Assembly: GCA_004299485.1 (NCBI GenBank)
Contig: SCQP01000002.1
Span: forward strand, 1-64,000
DNA: 64,000 nucleotides
Reading direction: 5' to 3'
Source of the DNA: Acidobacteriota bacterium
GTDB taxonomy: Bacteria; Acidobacteriota; Terriglobia; Terriglobales; SCQP01
Shown here in pieces: positions 14,186 through 61,797 of this stretch (position 1 is its first letter; each line of letters opens with the position of its first letter). The notes beneath the pieces were generated by a model. The model saw nothing but the letters and a program-made list of their open reading frames with translations. It ran no database searches and was not told the origin of the DNA. The translations under genes were made by a program, and so were the position numbers.

Positions 14186-15739
14186 CTATTTGTGTGTAGC
14201 GATGGTTTCGGGTTCCAGCGCATGAAGGGCCTGGCCGGAGTCCTCACGGACGTGATCGTGGAGGCTGTGGCCATGACTGTCCATGGTGACGACGGCGGGG
14301 AAGTTCTCGACCTCGAGCTCCCACATGGCCTCGGGCGTGCCGAATTCCAGCAGATGGACGGCGCGGACTTTCTTGATGGCGCGGCCATAATATTGCGCCG
14401 CTCCGCCGACGGCGTTGAGGTAGACGGCGCCACATTCCTGGAGAGCCGCGAGGGTTTTGGGTCCCATGCCGCCCTTGCCAATGATGACGCGCATGCCGAA
14501 GCGGCGGAGCAGGTCGGCCTCGTAGGGTTCTTCGCGGATGCTGGTGGTGGGACCGGCGGCGGTGATGGTCCAGGCGCCGGCAGCGTCTTTGCGGACGACC
14601 GGACCGCAGTGATAGAGCACGGCGTCGCGCAGATCGACGGGAGGGTCGTTGTGCATGAGGTAGCCGTGGACGGCGTCGCGGCCAGTGACCATGACGCCGG
14701 AAATCAGCACCATGTCGCCGACCTTGAGCTTGCGGATGTCGGCTTCGGCAACGGGCGCGCGCAGATGGATGCCTGCGGGGACCTCGACCGACTCTGGCGC
14801 TTTGGGTTCCTGACCGGCGAGGGGCGGATCGCCGTAGAGCCAGTGGCGCACGGCGCCCGAGGCAGCGTCGAGCACCAGGCCGCGGCGGCGATAGGCCCAG
14901 CAGTCGTAGGCGACGGAGACGAAAAAGCTGGCGGGAAGGCGATTCAGCGCGGTCGCCTTGCAGCCGATCAGCGACACGCCGCCGCCAAAGCCCATGGTTC
15001 CGATGCCCAGCGTATTGGCGCGGTCGAGGACGTAGGTTTCGAGTTCGGCGAGGCGCGAATCGGAGTTGGTGTCATCGAGCGGGCGCAGAAGCTGCTGCTT
15101 GGCGGCATCGTAGCCGGAGGTGCGGTCGCCGCCAATGGCCACGCCCAGCGCGCCGGGCGCACAGCCCTGGCCTTGCGCCTGCCAGACGGCGTGCAGAATG
15201 CATTTGCGGATGCCATCCATGTCGCGGCCGGCGCGGCCTAAGTGGTCCAGCGTGCAGGGAAGGGAGTACTGGATGTTTTTGTTTTCGCAGCCGCCGCCTT
15301 TGAGCAGCAGCTTGATTTCGACGTCACTGTCGTTTTCCCACTGCTCGAAGTGAATGACGGGCGTGCCGGGGCCGAGGTTGTTGCCGCTGTTTGTGCCGGT
15401 GAGCGAATCGACGCTGTTGGGGCGGAGTTTGCCGCGCCGGGTGGCTTCTTCGAGCGCGGCGAGAATTTCGCGGCGGAGCAGGATTTGATTGAAGCCGACG
15501 GGAGTGTGGATGAAGAACGTCGGCATGCCGGTGTCCTGACAGACCGGGCCTTCGTCGCCCGCGGCCATCTGGATGTTGGTGCCGATGATGTTCAGGGCCT
15601 GCGTCGCCTGATTTCCCTGCGGGTGCTCGGCCACTTCGCGGCCGGTGGCGCGCTGCATGGCGGCGCGGACGTCGGGCGGCAGGTCGGTCGAGGTGCGGGT
15701 AATCAGCGCAATCAGGTTTTCGCGGAAGCGCGGGTCCAT
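14186..15739 (-). CDS. fum: Class I (iron-sulfur) fumarate hydratase
   Basis: Class I fumarases interconvert fumarate and malate with a [4Fe-4S] cluster. The single 517-residue chain has both lobes: an N-terminal alpha part (CQDTGMPTFFIHTPVG, LTGTNSGNNLGPGTPV, LLKGGGCENKNIQYSLP, GGDRTSGYDAAK) and a C-terminal beta part (VGDMVLISGVMVTGRDAVH, AGPTTSIREEPYE, GKGGMGPKTLAALQE, GAVYLNAVGGAAQYY, VTMDSHGHSLHD). Conserved cysteines sit in CQDTG and GGGCENK and a third within YHCGPVV. The ATG at 15739 gives the normal N-terminus, but there is no ribosome site: a palindromic repeat abuts the start codon. Ku is upstream, pntAA downstream, all leftward. Confidence 0.95.
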   Translation of the reverse strand: MDPRFRENLIALITRTSTDLPPDVRAAMQRATGREVAEHPQGNQATQALNIIGTNIQMAAGDEGPVCQDTGMPTFFIHTPVGFNQILLRREILAALEEATRRGKLRPNSVDSLTGTNSGNNLGPGTPVIHFEQWENDSDVEIKLLLKGGGCENKNIQYSLPCTLDHLGRAGRDMDGIRKCILHAVWQAQGQGCAPGALGVAIGGDRTSGYDAAKQQLLRPLDDTNSDSRLAELETYVLDRANTLGIGTMGFGGGVSLIGCKATALNRLPASFFVSVAYDCWAYRRRGLVLDAASGAVRHWLYGDPPLAGQEPKAPESVEVPAGIHLRAPVAEADIRKLKVGDMVLISGVMVTGRDAVHGYLMHNDPPVDLRDAVLYHCGPVVRKDAAGAWTITAAGPTTSIREEPYEADLLRRFGMRVIIGKGGMGPKTLAALQECGAVYLNAVGGAAQYYGRAIKKVRAVHLLEFGTPEAMWELEVENFPAVVTMDSHGHSLHDHVREDSGQALHALEPETIATHK

Positions 15740-15842
15740 TGACTGGCGCGGGGCCTGGCGTGGCTGTGCCACGCCACCAGCTTGACGCTCGGCCGGGCTG
15801 GGGGCCCCAGGATCCCCAGCCCGGCCCTCGCGTAATGTTTTC
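15738..15842. repeat. Palindromic element, TTGACTGGCGCGGG family, abutting the fumarase start
   Basis: This shares about 100 bp with 60169-60272. It contains a 9-bp hairpin TGGCGTGGC-TGT-GCCACGCCA (15756-15776) and a 13-bp inverted repeat GGCCGGGCTGGGG / CCCCAGCCCGGCC (15791-15803 and 15814-15826). Its edge coincides with the fumarase ATG, so the whole element would lie in the 5' leader. The rest of the 211-bp spacer (15843-15950) holds a short palindrome GGGGCTGCGCCCC near 15888 and nothing else I recognise. Confidence 0.85.
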
Positions 15843-25283: not shown

Positions 25284-28200
25284 TTACTTTCCGCCGGCGA
25301 TTACGTTCGGGACCTTTTTCGAGCGCAACTCAGTGTTGAACTGGGTCAGGTCGGTGGAGAGGATCTGATCGAGCTGCTGCTGGTGCGCGGCGACCTGCTT
25401 GGCCAGCATCGTATTCACCTCGACTTGCTGATCGGTGGGCTGGAAGTCGGAACTGGTGACTTCGCGCTCCAGATAGGTCAGCTTGTCAATGAGGGTGGGC
25501 GCCCAGCGCCATTGGTCCTCGCCCTTGCCGGTGGCCTTGGTGTTATACAGGCCGGCTTCGAGGGATTCGAGCTTAGAGCTGAGCGCGGCGGCGGATTTAT
25601 GCAGGGCGGGAGCATCGGCGGCGGCGGGTCCGCCGGGATCGGCGGCGACGGCTTCGTCGAGGGAGACAAGCTGTCCGCGCACCAGCTCGATGCGATTGAT
25701 CATGGCGGTGACCTGCTTGTACTCGGCGGCGATGGCGTCGGCGAGCTTCTGCTGTGCGGCGATATCGGCGAGGGTGCCGCTGGAGTGGGGGTCTTTGAGC
25801 AGGAGGAAGGGCTGCTTGCGGGTGGTGCCGGCGGCGGTGAGCTCGAGAGTGTAGGTGCCGGGCGGCTCCAACAGCGTCAGCGGGCGGTCGTTGGGCGCGG
25901 TGCGCCAGCCGTGGAGATTGAGGGTTTGGTCGGGGGCATAGGGCGACATGGTGCGCAGATGGACGACCGGCAGCGCCGAGGATTGCATTTTCCAGTAAAC
26001 GCGGTTGAGGCCGGCAACGCCCGCGGCTTTGATGGTGTCGACGGTATGGCCCTCGGCGTTGACGACAGCGATGCGGACATTCTTGTCGGGCGCTTTGAGG
26101 TAGAAATTGATGACAGCACCGGGCGGAGGGTTCTGGCCCGCGCTGGGATCGGCGCCGGTTGAGATTTGGCGCACGGCGCCACGGAAGCGGTATGCGGGGC
26201 GCGGTGGGAACAGATAGGCGGCGCTGTCGGCGACCTGCTGGGAGTATTGCTCGAGGGGCTGGATGTCGCCCAGAATCCAGAAGCCGCGGCCATAGGTGCC
26301 GATCACGAGATCGTGGCGGCGGGGCTGGATGGTGAGCCAGTAGACGGGAGCGTGGGGCAGATTCATCTGCAGCGGCTGCCACTGGTCGCCGTTGTTGAAG
26401 GAGACGTAGACGCCGCCTTCGGTGCCGAGATAGAGCAGGCCTTTGCGGACGGGGTCCTCGATGACGCAGTGAGCGTAGCCGTTGGCGACGTGGGGCAGGC
26501 CGTTGGTGATCTTGGTCCAGGTGGCGCCGTAGTCACCGGTGCGGTAGACGTAGGGATCGCGGTTATCCACCTGATGAAAATCGACCGTGAGATAGGCGGC
26601 GCCGGCGGCGAACGGAGAAGGGAAGATGTTATCGACGGTGCCCCAGGGCGGCAGACCGGGAAGATTTTTGGTGAGGTTGGTCCAGTGCTTGCCGCCGTCA
26701 CGGGTAAGCTGCACCTGGCCATCGTTGGTGCCCGCCCAGATGAGGCCCTCCTGCTTCGGCGACACCGCGAGGGCGTAAATGACGCCGGCGTATTCGACGC
26801 CAATGTTGTCGGGCGTGAGGCCGCCGGAAATGCCCATGCGGGCTTTGTCGTCGAGCGTCAGGTCGGGGCTGATGTCCTGCCAGCTTTGGCCGCCGTCGGT
26901 GGTCATGTGGACGACCTGGCTGGCGGTGTAGACGCGGTGGGAATCAAACGGTGAAATCACCAGCGGGAACTGCCAGTTGAAGCGGTACTTGACTTCACCG
27001 GCGGGCGTACCGGCGACGGTGACGGGCCAGACTTCGACGTTGCGCTCCTGGCCGTTTTTCTGGTTGTAAATATCGACGACGCCGCCGACGGCGCCTTCAC
27101 CGGTGCCGCTGTTCCAGACGAGGTCGGGGTTGGAGGGATCGGGCAGGGCAAAACCTTCTTCGCCGCCACCGATGGTGTGCCAGTAGGAGGAGGCGATGGT
27201 GCCGCCGCGGCCGAAGAAGCCGCCGCCATTGGCGAGGCGGCTGGGGCCTTCGTAGCTGCCGGTATCCTGCTCGTTGCCGAGGACGTTGTAGGGAATGGCG
27301 TCGTCCACGGCGACATGGTACATCTGGCCATTGGCGAGGCGGACGTGGCGCCAGCTCTTGCCGCCGTCGGTGGTGATGGAGACACCGCCATCGTTGGCGA
27401 CGGCCATGCTGCGGGAGTTGGTGGGGTCAATCCACATGTCGTGGTTGTCGCCGCCGGGGCTGGAGGGCATGCGGGTGAGGGTGTGACCGCCGTCGAGGGT
27501 GCGGGTGAAGGCGTTGCCCAGGAAATAGACTTCGTTGGGGTTGCTGCTGCTGACCTCGCCGCGCGTGTAATAGGCGGTGCGGCTGCGGATATCACGGTCG
27601 CTGCTGACCAGCGTCCAGGTTGCGCCGGCGTTGCTGGAAGCCCAGAGCTGGCCGATCTGGGTGGGCTTACCATTGTCGGGCACGCCATCGCCGGTCTCGA
27701 TCAGGGCGTACACGCGGCTGGGATCGCTGGGTGCGACGGCGAGGCCGATTTTGCCGAGGGGCGAGTGGGGCAGGCCGTGGGCGGTGAGGCGCGTCCAGGT
27801 GGCGCCGCCGTCGAGGGATTTGAAAATGCCGCTGCCCGGGCCGCCGCTGGTGCGTCCCCAAGTGTGCAGGATGATCTGCCAGGTGGAGGCATAGACGATT
27901 TCAGGATTGGACATGTCCAGGGCGATGTCGCTGCAGCCGGTGTTGTCGTCCACGAAAAGGGTTTTGGTCCAGGTTTTGCCACCGTCGGTGGTGCGGTAGA
28001 CGCCGCGTTCGGGCTGCGGACCGTAATCGTTGCCCTGCGCGCAGGCGAGCACCACGTCGGAGTTGCGGGGGTCGATGATGACGCGGCCGATGCGGCCGGT
28101 TTTGTCGAGTCCCATGTGCTGCCAGGTGGCGCCGCCGTTGGTGGATTTGTAGATGCCGTCACCGATGGAGATATCGCTGCGGATGAAGCTTTCGCCCGTG

Positions 28201-28514
28201 CCCGCCCAGACGATATTGGGGTTGCTGCGCGCCACGGCGAGCGCGCCGATGGATTGCACCGGCTCAGCGTCGAACATGGGCTGCCAGGTGGTGCCGCCGT
28301 CGGTGGTCTTGAAGACGCCGCCCGAGGCCGCGCCCACGTACCAGATGTTGGGATTGCCGGCGACACCGGCTACCGCGTCGGTGCGGTTGCCGGGAGGGCC
28401 GATATAGCGCCAGCGCATGTGGCTATAGGCGCTTGGCGGCATGGACTGAGTTTGAGCCCAGGCCATGGCTCCTAGCGCCACGGCAATCACAACAAAACGC
28501 AGAAGCTGCCGCAT
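25284..28514 (-). CDS. Secreted VPS10/BNR-repeat (sortilin-like) propeller protein
   Basis: The 1076-residue exported protein has a signal peptide (LLRFVVIAVALGAMAWA-Q) and then a long beta-propeller region with Asp boxes (KTTDGGTTW, KSTNGGATW, RTTDGGKTW, KSLDGGATW, MTTDGGQSW, LTRDGGKHW). The last 250 residues are Ig-like and helical, with KQPFLLLKDPHSSG and a terminal coiled region. It is a paralogue of the protein at 58729-61797 along its whole length (shared openings MRWRLIGP / MRWRYIGP and blocks such as TIQPRRHDLVIGTYGRGFWILGD). The role is unknown; relatives are sometimes annotated as glycosyl hydrolases without catalytic evidence. The start has GGGAGGG about 8 nt upstream. Confidence 0.9.
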   Translation of the reverse strand: MRQLLRFVVIAVALGAMAWAQTQSMPPSAYSHMRWRYIGPPGNRTDAVAGVAGNPNIWYVGAASGGVFKTTDGGTTWQPMFDAEPVQSIGALAVARSNPNIVWAGTGESFIRSDISIGDGIYKSTNGGATWQHMGLDKTGRIGRVIIDPRNSDVVLACAQGNDYGPQPERGVYRTTDGGKTWTKTLFVDDNTGCSDIALDMSNPEIVYASTWQIILHTWGRTSGGPGSGIFKSLDGGATWTRLTAHGLPHSPLGKIGLAVAPSDPSRVYALIETGDGVPDNGKPTQIGQLWASSNAGATWTLVSSDRDIRSRTAYYTRGEVSSSNPNEVYFLGNAFTRTLDGGHTLTRMPSSPGGDNHDMWIDPTNSRSMAVANDGGVSITTDGGKSWRHVRLANGQMYHVAVDDAIPYNVLGNEQDTGSYEGPSRLANGGGFFGRGGTIASSYWHTIGGGEEGFALPDPSNPDLVWNSGTGEGAVGGVVDIYNQKNGQERNVEVWPVTVAGTPAGEVKYRFNWQFPLVISPFDSHRVYTASQVVHMTTDGGQSWQDISPDLTLDDKARMGISGGLTPDNIGVEYAGVIYALAVSPKQEGLIWAGTNDGQVQLTRDGGKHWTNLTKNLPGLPPWGTVDNIFPSPFAAGAAYLTVDFHQVDNRDPYVYRTGDYGATWTKITNGLPHVANGYAHCVIEDPVRKGLLYLGTEGGVYVSFNNGDQWQPLQMNLPHAPVYWLTIQPRRHDLVIGTYGRGFWILGDIQPLEQYSQQVADSAAYLFPPRPAYRFRGAVRQISTGADPSAGQNPPPGAVINFYLKAPDKNVRIAVVNAEGHTVDTIKAAGVAGLNRVYWKMQSSALPVVHLRTMSPYAPDQTLNLHGWRTAPNDRPLTLLEPPGTYTLELTAAGTTRKQPFLLLKDPHSSGTLADIAAQQKLADAIAAEYKQVTAMINRIELVRGQLVSLDEAVAADPGGPAAADAPALHKSAAALSSKLESLEAGLYNTKATGKGEDQWRWAPTLIDKLTYLEREVTSSDFQPTDQQVEVNTMLAKQVAAHQQQLDQILSTDLTQFNTELRSKKVPNVIAGGK

Positions 28515-58728: not shown

Positions 58729-61700
58729 CTACCGCTGCGGCAGCAGAGCTTTGAGCGCTGCCTCCAGTGTAGCGGCGGCTGTTTGCTGGACGGGAGTGGG
58801 TACGGCATTGACGTTCGCGATGCCGCCGGCCTCGGCGCTGCCAGTCAGCAGACCCTGGAGGTCGTCGTTGAGGCGAGCCAGTTTGGCGGCGCGGACCGGA
58901 TCGCCGGCGCGCGCGGCTTCATAGGCGGCGTAGCTTGCATTCATCGCCTGGGCGAGAGCGGTGGCGACAGCAAACTGGGTGTGCAACTGCGTGGCCGTCA
59001 TATGAATGCGCGGATCCATATTCAGCGTGAGCGGCTGGGTGTAGGTCTGGCCGCCGACGGTGAGTTTGACCGTGTACTGGCCGGGCAGCGCCAGCACTCC
59101 TTGCGGCTCACGCGGCGTTGCGCCTTTGATGGCGGAAATGGGATAGGAGTGGGTCAGCGCCTTGGGCGCAGTGTAATGGAGATCCCAGACGAAACGGTGC
59201 ATGCCGGGCGCAGTCGAAGGCTTGGTGAAGGGCTGGAGCCAGTAGAGCGGGACGACGGTGGTGTGCGCCAGCTCGGCCTGTGACTCGGGTGGCTGATCGG
59301 TGCTGGAATAGCGGCGCACCAGTTTGCCTTGGGCGTCGTAAATGGTCAGCGTCACTGGGCCTGAGGACGCAGAGCGCAAATAGTAGTCAATCATGGCACC
59401 GCTGGGCGGGTTCTGGCCTTGTGGCATTTCGGGTGTCAGGGGCGTATCGGTGTTGGCGTCGCGCTGCAGGCGATAGGCAAACTCCGGTTTGAACAGGTAG
59501 ACCGGCGCGGAGGCAACTTGTGCCGTGAGCTGGCGCAGGGGCGCGAGGTCGTCAAGAATCCAGAAGGAGCGGCCGTGGGTGCCGACGACGAGGTCGTTCT
59601 GATGCACGGTTAGATCACGCATCGAGGTGTGGGGCAGATTCAACTGCAGCGATTGCCATTGATCGCCGTCGTTGAAGGAGACGTAGACCGAGGTCTCCGT
59701 GCCGGCATAGAGCAAGCCGCGGCGCACAGGGTCTTCGCGCAGCACATCGGTCGCGTCGCCATCCGGCAGGCCGGTATTGATTGGCGTCCAGGTCTTACCG
59801 CCGTCGTGGGTGCGGAACAGATGCGGCTGCATTTCGTCGAGCCGCAGAGTGTTGATGGCAGCGTAGCAGGTGTTGGGATCGAAGTGGCTGGCGTCGAGCG
59901 AGGAGACTTTCCACCAGGGCTGCAACTGCGGCGGCGTCACGTTGGTCCAATGGGCGCCGCCGTCGCGGGTTACCCAGATCAGGCCGTCGTCGGTTCCGGC
60001 CCAGAGCACATTCGCGTTGAGGGGCGATGGCGAGAGGGCGTAGACCACGCCGCCATCGGGTTTGGCATTGCCGTACCCGGAAAAGGTGAAGGGCGCCAGG
60101 GTGGGCGCGGAAGCCTGCGGCCGGCGGGTGAGATCGGGGCTGATCGTCTGCCAGTGGCGGCCACCGTCATTGACTGGCGCGGGGCCTGGCGTGGCTGCGC
60201 CACGCCACCCGCTTGGCGCTCGGCCGGGCTGGGGGCCCCGGGAGCCCCAGCCCGGCCCGCGCGTAAGGGTTTTGAGAACGACGTTGGCGCCCAGGTAAAG
60301 GGCGTGCTTGTCTACCGGCGAAAATACCAGGGGCATGGTGCGGCGGAAGCGCAGCTTGCCGCCCAGCATCTGTGGCCCGACGTTCTGATCGACATGGGTG
60401 CGTTTGTTGTAGCGCGTGACCGCGCCGCCGCCGGCGCCATAGATGATATTGGGATGCAGCGGATCGGGCGCGACATCGGCATACTCGAAGGCGCCCACCG
60501 GATGCCAGTTGCGCAGGGTGATGGCGCCATCGGGACCGCGGCTGGAGATGCCGACGGAGCCGCTTTCCTGCTGGCCGCCGTAGACGTTGTACGGAAAATC
60601 GTTGTCGGTCGAGACCTTGTAGATCTGGGCAGTGGGCTGGTTGTACCAGGAGCTCCAGGTGCGGCCGCGGTTCACGCTGATGGTCGCGCCCTGATCCACG
60701 CCCAGCATGATGAGGTTGCGGTTCGCGGGGTCGATCCAGACGGTGTGATAATCGTCGCCGCCGGGGGCACCCTTGATGGGAATGAAACTGTGGCCGCCGT
60801 CCTCGGAGCGGTAGGTTGAGGTATTGGCGTCGTACACGACGTTAGGATCGGTTGGATCGACGGTGATGCCGGCAAAATCGAAGCCGCGTCCCCAAAGGCG
60901 GGGATTGGTATTGATCAACTGCCAGGTGGCGCCGGCATCATCGGAACGATAGACGCCGCCGTGGGCGCGGGCTTCGACCAGGGCATAGATGCGATTGGGA
61001 TCGCTGGGCGCGATGCCGATACCGATGCGGCCGACGTGATCGTGCTGCCAATCGGGCAGACCGTGGGTGAGCGGCGTCCAGGTGGTGCCGCCATCGGTCG
61101 ATTTGTATAAGCCGCTGCCGGGGCCTTCAAACAGCGACCAAGGGGTGTAGCGCGAGGCCCAGAGATCGGCGTAGACAATCTGCGAGTTTTGCGGATCGAG
61201 CGCGACTTGCATCGCCCCGACGTTTTCACCTTTGTACAGCACGCGCTGAAAGGTTTGGCCGCCGTCGAGCGAGCGGTAGATGCCGCGCTCGGGGTTCGGA
61301 CCGTAAGGATGGCCGTTCACGGCGACGAACAGGCGGTCGGGGTTGTGCGGGTCGACGGCGACGGCGCCGATCTGCTGGCCGTCGCGCAGGCCCAGGTGTG
61401 CCCAGGTCTTGCCGCCATCGGACGATTTGTAGATGCCATCGCCGGTGGAAAGATCAGGCCGGCGCAGGCCCTCGCCGCTGCCGACGTAAATAATGTTGGG
61501 ATTGGAAGGGGCGACGGCCAGCGCGCCAATGGAACCGGTGGGCTCGTGTTCGAAAATCGGTTTCCAGGTGTTGCCGTAATCGGTTGTTTTCCAGACGCCG
61601 CCATCAGCCGCGCCGAAGTAAAAGACGCCCGGCTGGCTGGGCACGCCGCTCACGGCGACGGTGCGCCCGCCGCGAAAGGGCCCAATGAGGCGCCAGCGCA

Positions 61701-61797
61701 TGCCTTGATACAGGTTGGGGTTGAATTGCTGTGCGGCGCAGAGCGCGACGAGGAGGGCAGGGAACAGCAGCAGTGCGGAGAAGCGCAAACGAGGCAT
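58729..61797 (-). CDS. Secreted VPS10/BNR-repeat propeller protein with in-frame palindromic insertion
   Basis: The 1022-residue exported protein has a signal peptide (FSALLLFPALLVALCAA-Q), Asp-box propeller repeats (KTTDYGNTW, KSSDGGKTW, RSLDGGQTF, KSTDGGTTW, RSDDAGATW, VTRDGGAHW, RTHDGGKTW) and an Ig/helical C-terminal part with LTLNMDPRIHMTATQLHTQF. It is a paralogue of the protein at 25284. In the middle, between VVLKT and NDGGRHWQTISPDL, are 32 residues (LTRGPGWGSRGP ... GAATPGPAPV) absent from the paralogue (VVHMT-TDGGQSWQDISPDL) and encoded exactly by the element at 60172-60267. The ATG at 61797 starts the signal peptide. Confidence 0.9.
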   Translation of the reverse strand: MPRLRFSALLLFPALLVALCAAQQFNPNLYQGMRWRLIGPFRGGRTVAVSGVPSQPGVFYFGAADGGVWKTTDYGNTWKPIFEHEPTGSIGALAVAPSNPNIIYVGSGEGLRRPDLSTGDGIYKSSDGGKTWAHLGLRDGQQIGAVAVDPHNPDRLFVAVNGHPYGPNPERGIYRSLDGGQTFQRVLYKGENVGAMQVALDPQNSQIVYADLWASRYTPWSLFEGPGSGLYKSTDGGTTWTPLTHGLPDWQHDHVGRIGIGIAPSDPNRIYALVEARAHGGVYRSDDAGATWQLINTNPRLWGRGFDFAGITVDPTDPNVVYDANTSTYRSEDGGHSFIPIKGAPGGDDYHTVWIDPANRNLIMLGVDQGATISVNRGRTWSSWYNQPTAQIYKVSTDNDFPYNVYGGQQESGSVGISSRGPDGAITLRNWHPVGAFEYADVAPDPLHPNIIYGAGGGAVTRYNKRTHVDQNVGPQMLGGKLRFRRTMPLVFSPVDKHALYLGANVVLKTLTRGPGWGSRGPQPGRAPSGWRGAATPGPAPVNDGGRHWQTISPDLTRRPQASAPTLAPFTFSGYGNAKPDGGVVYALSPSPLNANVLWAGTDDGLIWVTRDGGAHWTNVTPPQLQPWWKVSSLDASHFDPNTCYAAINTLRLDEMQPHLFRTHDGGKTWTPINTGLPDGDATDVLREDPVRRGLLYAGTETSVYVSFNDGDQWQSLQLNLPHTSMRDLTVHQNDLVVGTHGRSFWILDDLAPLRQLTAQVASAPVYLFKPEFAYRLQRDANTDTPLTPEMPQGQNPPSGAMIDYYLRSASSGPVTLTIYDAQGKLVRRYSSTDQPPESQAELAHTTVVPLYWLQPFTKPSTAPGMHRFVWDLHYTAPKALTHSYPISAIKGATPREPQGVLALPGQYTVKLTVGGQTYTQPLTLNMDPRIHMTATQLHTQFAVATALAQAMNASYAAYEAARAGDPVRAAKLARLNDDLQGLLTGSAEAGGIANVNAVPTPVQQTAAATLEAALKALLPQR
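60172..60267. repeat. Palindromic element (TTGACTGGCGCGGG family) inserted in frame in the VPS10-like gene
   Basis: The insert is 96 bp (32 codons). It has the same two inverted repeats as the copy at 15738: TGGCGTGGC / GCCACGCCA (60187-60195, 60199-60207) and GGCCGGGCTGGGG / CCCCAGCCCGGCC (60222-60234, 60245-60257). Homology with the other copy runs slightly past both edges (60169-60272). It splits an Asp-box repeat between K-T and N-D-G-G. Confidence 0.88.

Follow-up and report, generated by a model that had tools for sequence, protein, structure and literature searches.

An in-frame insert in a Vps10/BNR gene of an Acidobacteriota bacterium as a probable copy of a mobile palindromic element

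The window analysed here, a stretch of 64,000 nucleotides at the start of contig SCQP01000002.1 of an Acidobacteriota bacterium, contains a gene for a Vps10/BNR propeller protein whose reading frame is lengthened by a palindromic sequence that occurs a second time in the same window. This raises the question of what the sequence is and how it came to lie in frame within a protein gene. With good confidence, we interpret the insert as a copy of a mobile palindromic element that is non-autonomous, is inferred to move as single-stranded DNA and is neutral to the reading frame, an explanation that we consider probable as a whole.

The insert in the Vps10/BNR gene

The preliminary description of this DNA had placed a 104-bp palindromic element at 60169-60272. 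The element itself is real, but it measures 96 bp (60169-60264) and ends in ATTGAC and CGCGT. Its 9-bp arms in hairpin 1 and 13-bp arms in hairpin 2 are, as had been described, identical between the copies at 60169 and 15738. Chance is excluded by the counts, since the hairpin 1 motif matches the window 4 times against 0.02 expected, and in the whole genome a 20-bp core is matched 51 times, compared with once for a reversed-pattern control.

Table 1. Coordinates of the element copies, hairpins and genes in the window.
Feature	Position	Strand	Evidence or remark
Complete 96-bp element (ATTGAC...CGCGT)	60169..60264	+	Covariance-model match of 103.9 bits, model positions 1-96; antisense and in frame within the Vps10/BNR gene
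Hairpin 1	60179..60212	+	Invariant GCGGG/CCCGC base, GCC bulge, 3-nt loop
9-bp arms of hairpin 1	60187-60195 and 60199-60207	+	
Hairpin 2	60222..60257	+	13-bp arms 60222-60234 and 60245-60257
Host gene, 1022-aa Vps10/BNR propeller protein	58729..61797	-	Pfam Sortilin-Vps10, 1.2e-29
Paralogous Vps10/BNR gene without insert	25284..28514	-	Pfam and alignment
Second window copy, 96 bp	15738..15833	+	110.4 bits; at the 5' end of the fumarase gene
Class I fumarase gene adjoining the second copy	14186..15739	-	Pfam Fumerase, 1.1e-65; Fumerase_C, 1.1e-54

The 96 bp correspond to residues ~511-542 of the protein. Across 14 genomes of the family, this protein was aligned with its paralogues and orthologues, and the alignments typically ended at ~510 and restarted at ~543, while the subject DNA was contiguous across the break. 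Excision of exactly 96 bp yields VVLKT-L-DGGRHW, where the closest orthologue (70% identical) reads VLKT-V-DGGRHW. Several earlier claims about this insert are upheld by these data: on the strand of the gene it is in frame and free of stops, it splits an Asp box that the exact excision restores to normal, and its 32 residues, reported as lacking from the paralogue in the window, are absent from every aligned homologue. Comparison of orthologues for insertion and absence alleles also gave empty sites in relatives, and it is not the case that all orthologues carry the insert.

An AlphaFold2 model of the host protein, built with 17 homologues, has a mean pLDDT of 81. Residues 514-540 fall below 50 and lie between strands 507-510 and 549-551, and the model shows the insert as a predicted disordered loop joining the two strands. 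The Vps10/BNR propeller expansion is itself very large, with 91 matches to the 1022-aa protein in the 3.3-Mb genome. At the second copy (15736-15741), the last two bases of the element (AT on the gene strand) are followed by a host G, and the ATG so formed is in frame with fumarase; the element may have donated the start codon of this gene, although orthologue starts were not compared.

Copies across the genome, the family and protein genes

A covariance model built from 22 copies was searched against the 3.3-Mb genome and gave 111 matches at E<=0.01, of which 75 exceeded 52 bits. Some weak matches merely mirror a copy from the opposite strand, and we estimate the real copy number at about 90-100. 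The repeat is therefore multi-copy, as had been supposed, and not limited to two places. It was found in 9 of the 14 genomes of the family, comprising every genome of this genus (five) and of a second genus, g3 (three), as well as one of a third (g5). An exact pattern searched over the genomes of 84,980 species matched only Acidobacteriota MAGs. The same kind of search found no match in IMG/VR viral contigs, and viral carriage was rejected on this ground; nor did a covariance-model search of Rfam 15 give any match, on which basis a known structured RNA was discarded. At one locus (L099:1973-2239), two identical copies stand in direct repeat 172 bp apart, and the sequence suggests that a segment with the element was duplicated locally in tandem.

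Genes were called with a self-made, self-trained codon-usage finder with the element masked. By these calls, 26 of the 34 copies of 96 bp lie within open genes, compared with 14 of 37 copies of other lengths when the four of 117 bp are excluded (p=0.002). Since the coding fraction of the genome is 0.81, random insertion would not be expected to put visibly more of the 96-bp copies in genes than were found there. Seventeen of the 26 meet a strict definition, by which the gene extends 60 bp or more to either side of the element and scores well, and the remaining 9 are weak calls, near gene ends or low scoring. Hosts of 96-bp copies identified by Pfam include dnaE, uvrA, RNase R/II, sulphite reductase, SRAP, an OprB porin, prolyl oligopeptidase and gamma-glutamyltranspeptidase; copies of other lengths are found in pheT (two copies), smc and folE. 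In smc, RNase R, sulphite reductase and a phosphopentomutase-like gene, the joins left by excision align to orthologues with 0-5 gap residues, and for dnaE, srap and uvrA a clean or nearly clean empty site exists in at least one relative. The central proposal of the preliminary description, a multi-copy palindromic element precisely inserted in frame in protein genes with empty alleles in relatives, thus holds in full.

The sequence of the element leaves most frames readable. Among the 34 copies of 96 bp, the numbers free of stops in the three sense frames are 33, 9 and 8, and in the antisense frames 32, 30 and 29; the single open phase is used by 16 of the 17 sense copies in genes. This frame test is partly circular, because an ORF caller can only call open ORFs and not broken genes, so the telling number is that of copies adjoining a truncated-looking gene call, which is only 8. 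The encoded inserts have ~32 residues, about 65% of them A, G, P and R. A single-sequence AlphaFold model of the SRAP host reached a pLDDT of only 37 and was not used.

Some host genes have particular features. In one pheT (L086:1900-4041), nothing corresponds to D. radiodurans-type residues ~42-153, and the tRNA-binding (EMAP) domain normally present is apparently missing at the first insertion, a junction occupied by the element. A UvrA-like gene of a relative (L167:2033-3799 in G004) has its own copy at another position, near the N-terminus, and uvrA may have been struck independently in two species.

Hairpins, length forms and the parent element

The stems are maintained by compensatory changes, as shown by the alignment of 107 copies, and the structure is under selection. 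Standard pairs occupy 93.5% of the pair cells, double changes occur in 22 of 29 pairs, and double-change cells number 308 against 82 after shuffling. Covariation is 0.298, compared with at most 0.070 in slid controls. Fitting the alignment to the model inflates these values, but alternative stems are still visible in the raw sequences. The near-invariant GCGGG/CCCGC base may, by inference, be a recognition site.

A longer form of ~192 bp with three hairpins, which we regard as the parent, is present in this genome and in relatives. Several mostly intergenic copies here, and many in relatives, run on for ~100 bp to a third hairpin ending in GGCGCGGCCCCCGCGT. The 96-bp form matches this parent minus the stretch between two CGGCC tracts, a correspondence that points to microhomology deletion as its likely origin, inferred from the sequences of the two forms. 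No gene was found inside the five full-length copies of the long-form tail in this genome, and an autonomous version of the element was rejected for this reason.

Copies in genus g3 are mostly 97 bp, and only 2 of the 18 scored at that length lie in called genes, the other 16 being intergenic; the contrast with the 26 of 34 copies of 96 bp in this genome is strong (p=7e-6). However, the g3 copies also bear the long tail, which is stop-rich in some frames, so that length modulo three is confounded with total length.

Four copies of 117 bp (L077, L083, L091 and L094) have an extra 21-bp palindrome within hairpin 1. This second palindrome, AACGACGCA-N-TGCGTCGTT, occurs both in hairpin 1, in some copies, and in other hairpins; besides the 117-bp copies, it or a related palindrome was noted at L212:2149, L234:15685, L238:9235 and L249:7828 and 8050. 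This arrangement suggests modular nested palindromes.

Mode of movement and relation to known repeats

No target duplication was found at the insertions, even when the ends were shifted by -3 to +3, and the empty sites are near-exact in length. Nor did the insertions show a conserved tetranucleotide as target, such as IS608 has. Orientation is blocked along the contigs: of 60 neighbouring pairs, 13 switch where 30.3 would be expected, and 0 of 5000 shuffles was as low. It follows local GC skew (r=0.62) and 20-kb third-position skew (r=0.51, p=0.0003), the top strand of the element being on the G-rich, presumably leading strand, which has the sequence of the lagging-strand template. The bias was judged by GC skew without a mapped ori or ter, contig 18 runs against it and a test by flipping contigs gave only 2/32; it was not replicated in G004 and genus g3, where assemblies are fragmented and uninformative.

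Covarying stems, absence of target duplication and an orientation that follows strand skew make IS200/IS605-like single-stranded DNA transposition in trans the most likely mode of movement. The element would move as single-stranded DNA, its hairpins being recognised by an HUH-type enzyme acting in trans, although none has been identified, and would enter the lagging-strand template. The short form would derive from deletion between the CGGCC repeats of the parent. Most insertions in genes would be survivable because 96 is 3 x 32 and four of the six frames are usually open, and the peptide would form a disordered surface loop, selectively near-neutral, for which there are no expression or proteomic data. 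A stronger version, which we put forward only tentatively, is that of a new, Y1-free class of single-stranded DNA elements, in which a single deletion turned a ~192-bp intergenic parent into a frame-neutral 96-bp form that then spread in housekeeping genes, with length modulo three deciding between genes and intergenic sites.

A RAYT gene had been proposed as an explanation of mobility. That the element is REPIN-like and owes its movement to a REP-associated tyrosine transposase since lost, or missing in the assembly, remains possible but rather doubtful. Hairpins, absent duplication and strand bias are all compatible with Y1 chemistry, and Y1 genes exist in the element-bearing relatives G002, G003, G006, G011 and G013. 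However, no Y1 gene (PF01797) was found in this 98.8%-complete genome, nor in G001 or G004, all with many copies, whereas G005, G007 and G009 have Y1 and zero copies; the proposal finds no support, and Y1 genes do not track the element across the family. Those examined have no significant element match in their flanks, and the element has no terminal GTAG. The search does not exclude a divergent class-3 Y1. Such enzymes with atypical flanking structures have been reported for Acidobacteria (PMC6006769), and one is a possible mobilising enzyme here. Y2/IS91 was rejected for want of any match in the genome, a weak negative given that the search control matched nowhere.

Movement as double-stranded DNA, as a classic MITE served by the transposase of a DDE insertion sequence, would suit a short, multi-copy repeat whose GC-rich ends have weak inverted similarity (GCGGGGCC / GGCCCCCGCG), but we consider it improbable in view of the missing target duplication, the empty sites of exact length, the non-random orientation, and covariation that lies inside the hairpins and not between paired termini. 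Even less support exists for a retroelement, i.e. a structured RNA copied into DNA by a reverse transcriptase. Retrohoming can produce strand bias too, and both the strong RNA-like covariation and the three-hairpin parent would fit, but the element has no Rfam match and no RVT_1 gene was found in this genome or the other four members of the genus, on which ground a reverse transcriptase was rejected as mobiliser. That the insert, instead of being selfish DNA, encodes a peptide domesticated for a selected function in its hosts seems the most remote of these readings. Copies in housekeeping genes could be taken in its favour; however, both orientations and all the usually open frames are used, giving four unrelated peptides, and the hosts are unrelated and their insertions absent from relatives.

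The single-stranded DNA element that we favour shares with non-autonomous IS200/IS605 derivatives its hairpin ends and lack of duplication and, as far as GC skew in this genome can tell, a lagging-strand-template orientation, the last reported for IS608 and ISDra2 (PMC6006769), but it differs in that no TnpA Y1 and no strict target tetranucleotide were found. GTAG REPs and REPINs with RAYT are likewise high-copy hairpin repeats, some in uvrA and dnaE2 (PMC3733652), which the uvrA and dnaE insertions here echo; unlike them, the element lacks a terminal GTAG, measures 96-192 bp against units of 20-40 bp, and resides in a genome without RAYT. CGTC REPs also have no dedicated transposase and known in-gene copies (PMC3733652). 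In the element, by contrast, CGTC (GACG) is only internal and in one subfamily only, head-to-head dimers are not formed, and the hallmarks of that class, a terminal unpaired CGTC and a CCA tail, were not found. Membership of either REP class was rejected on the termini.

Rickettsia palindromic elements (RPE) are palindromic repeats lying in frame in unrelated functional genes and absent from orthologues (PMC10969869, PMC3733652). They and their Wolbachia relatives resemble the element in these respects and in being palindromes of roughly 100-150 bp, and by analogy, without sequence comparison, they are its functional counterpart. The element differs in its GC-rich composition, lineage, two or three hairpins with a bulged hairpin 1, longer parent and the strand-biased orientation observed in this genome. 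Of the earlier statement that it resembles RPE, by a mechanism not generally described for Acidobacteriota, the RPE-like behaviour in genes stands, but in-gene repeats are not confined to Rickettsia (PMC3733652). Because REPs inside genes have been reported in several phyla, including uvrA, dnaE2 and other repair genes (PMC3733652), the element adds a new case, with unusual features, to a phenomenon already known. In-gene palindromic elements, a habit best known from Rickettsia, were not found described for Acidobacteriota in the open-access literature searched; against that literature, the novelty lies in the lineage, in the pairing of parent and derivative, in the contrast of lengths and in the strand bias. 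It adds another lineage, far from Rickettsia, where selfish palindromes invade coding sequence at scale, and as this bacterium has a normal genome size, the reduced selection of obligate parasites is not required as an explanation. Sister genera with elements of 96 bp and 97 bp provide a natural experiment on mobile DNA becoming protein sequence, and what moves RPE-like elements becomes a testable question through a strand bias for which no enzyme is known. In genus g3, RAYT reading frames at L196 and L197 continue upstream through repeats encoding RRKWDGRPRLSA-like peptides, which, from their sequence, are probably another repeat family.
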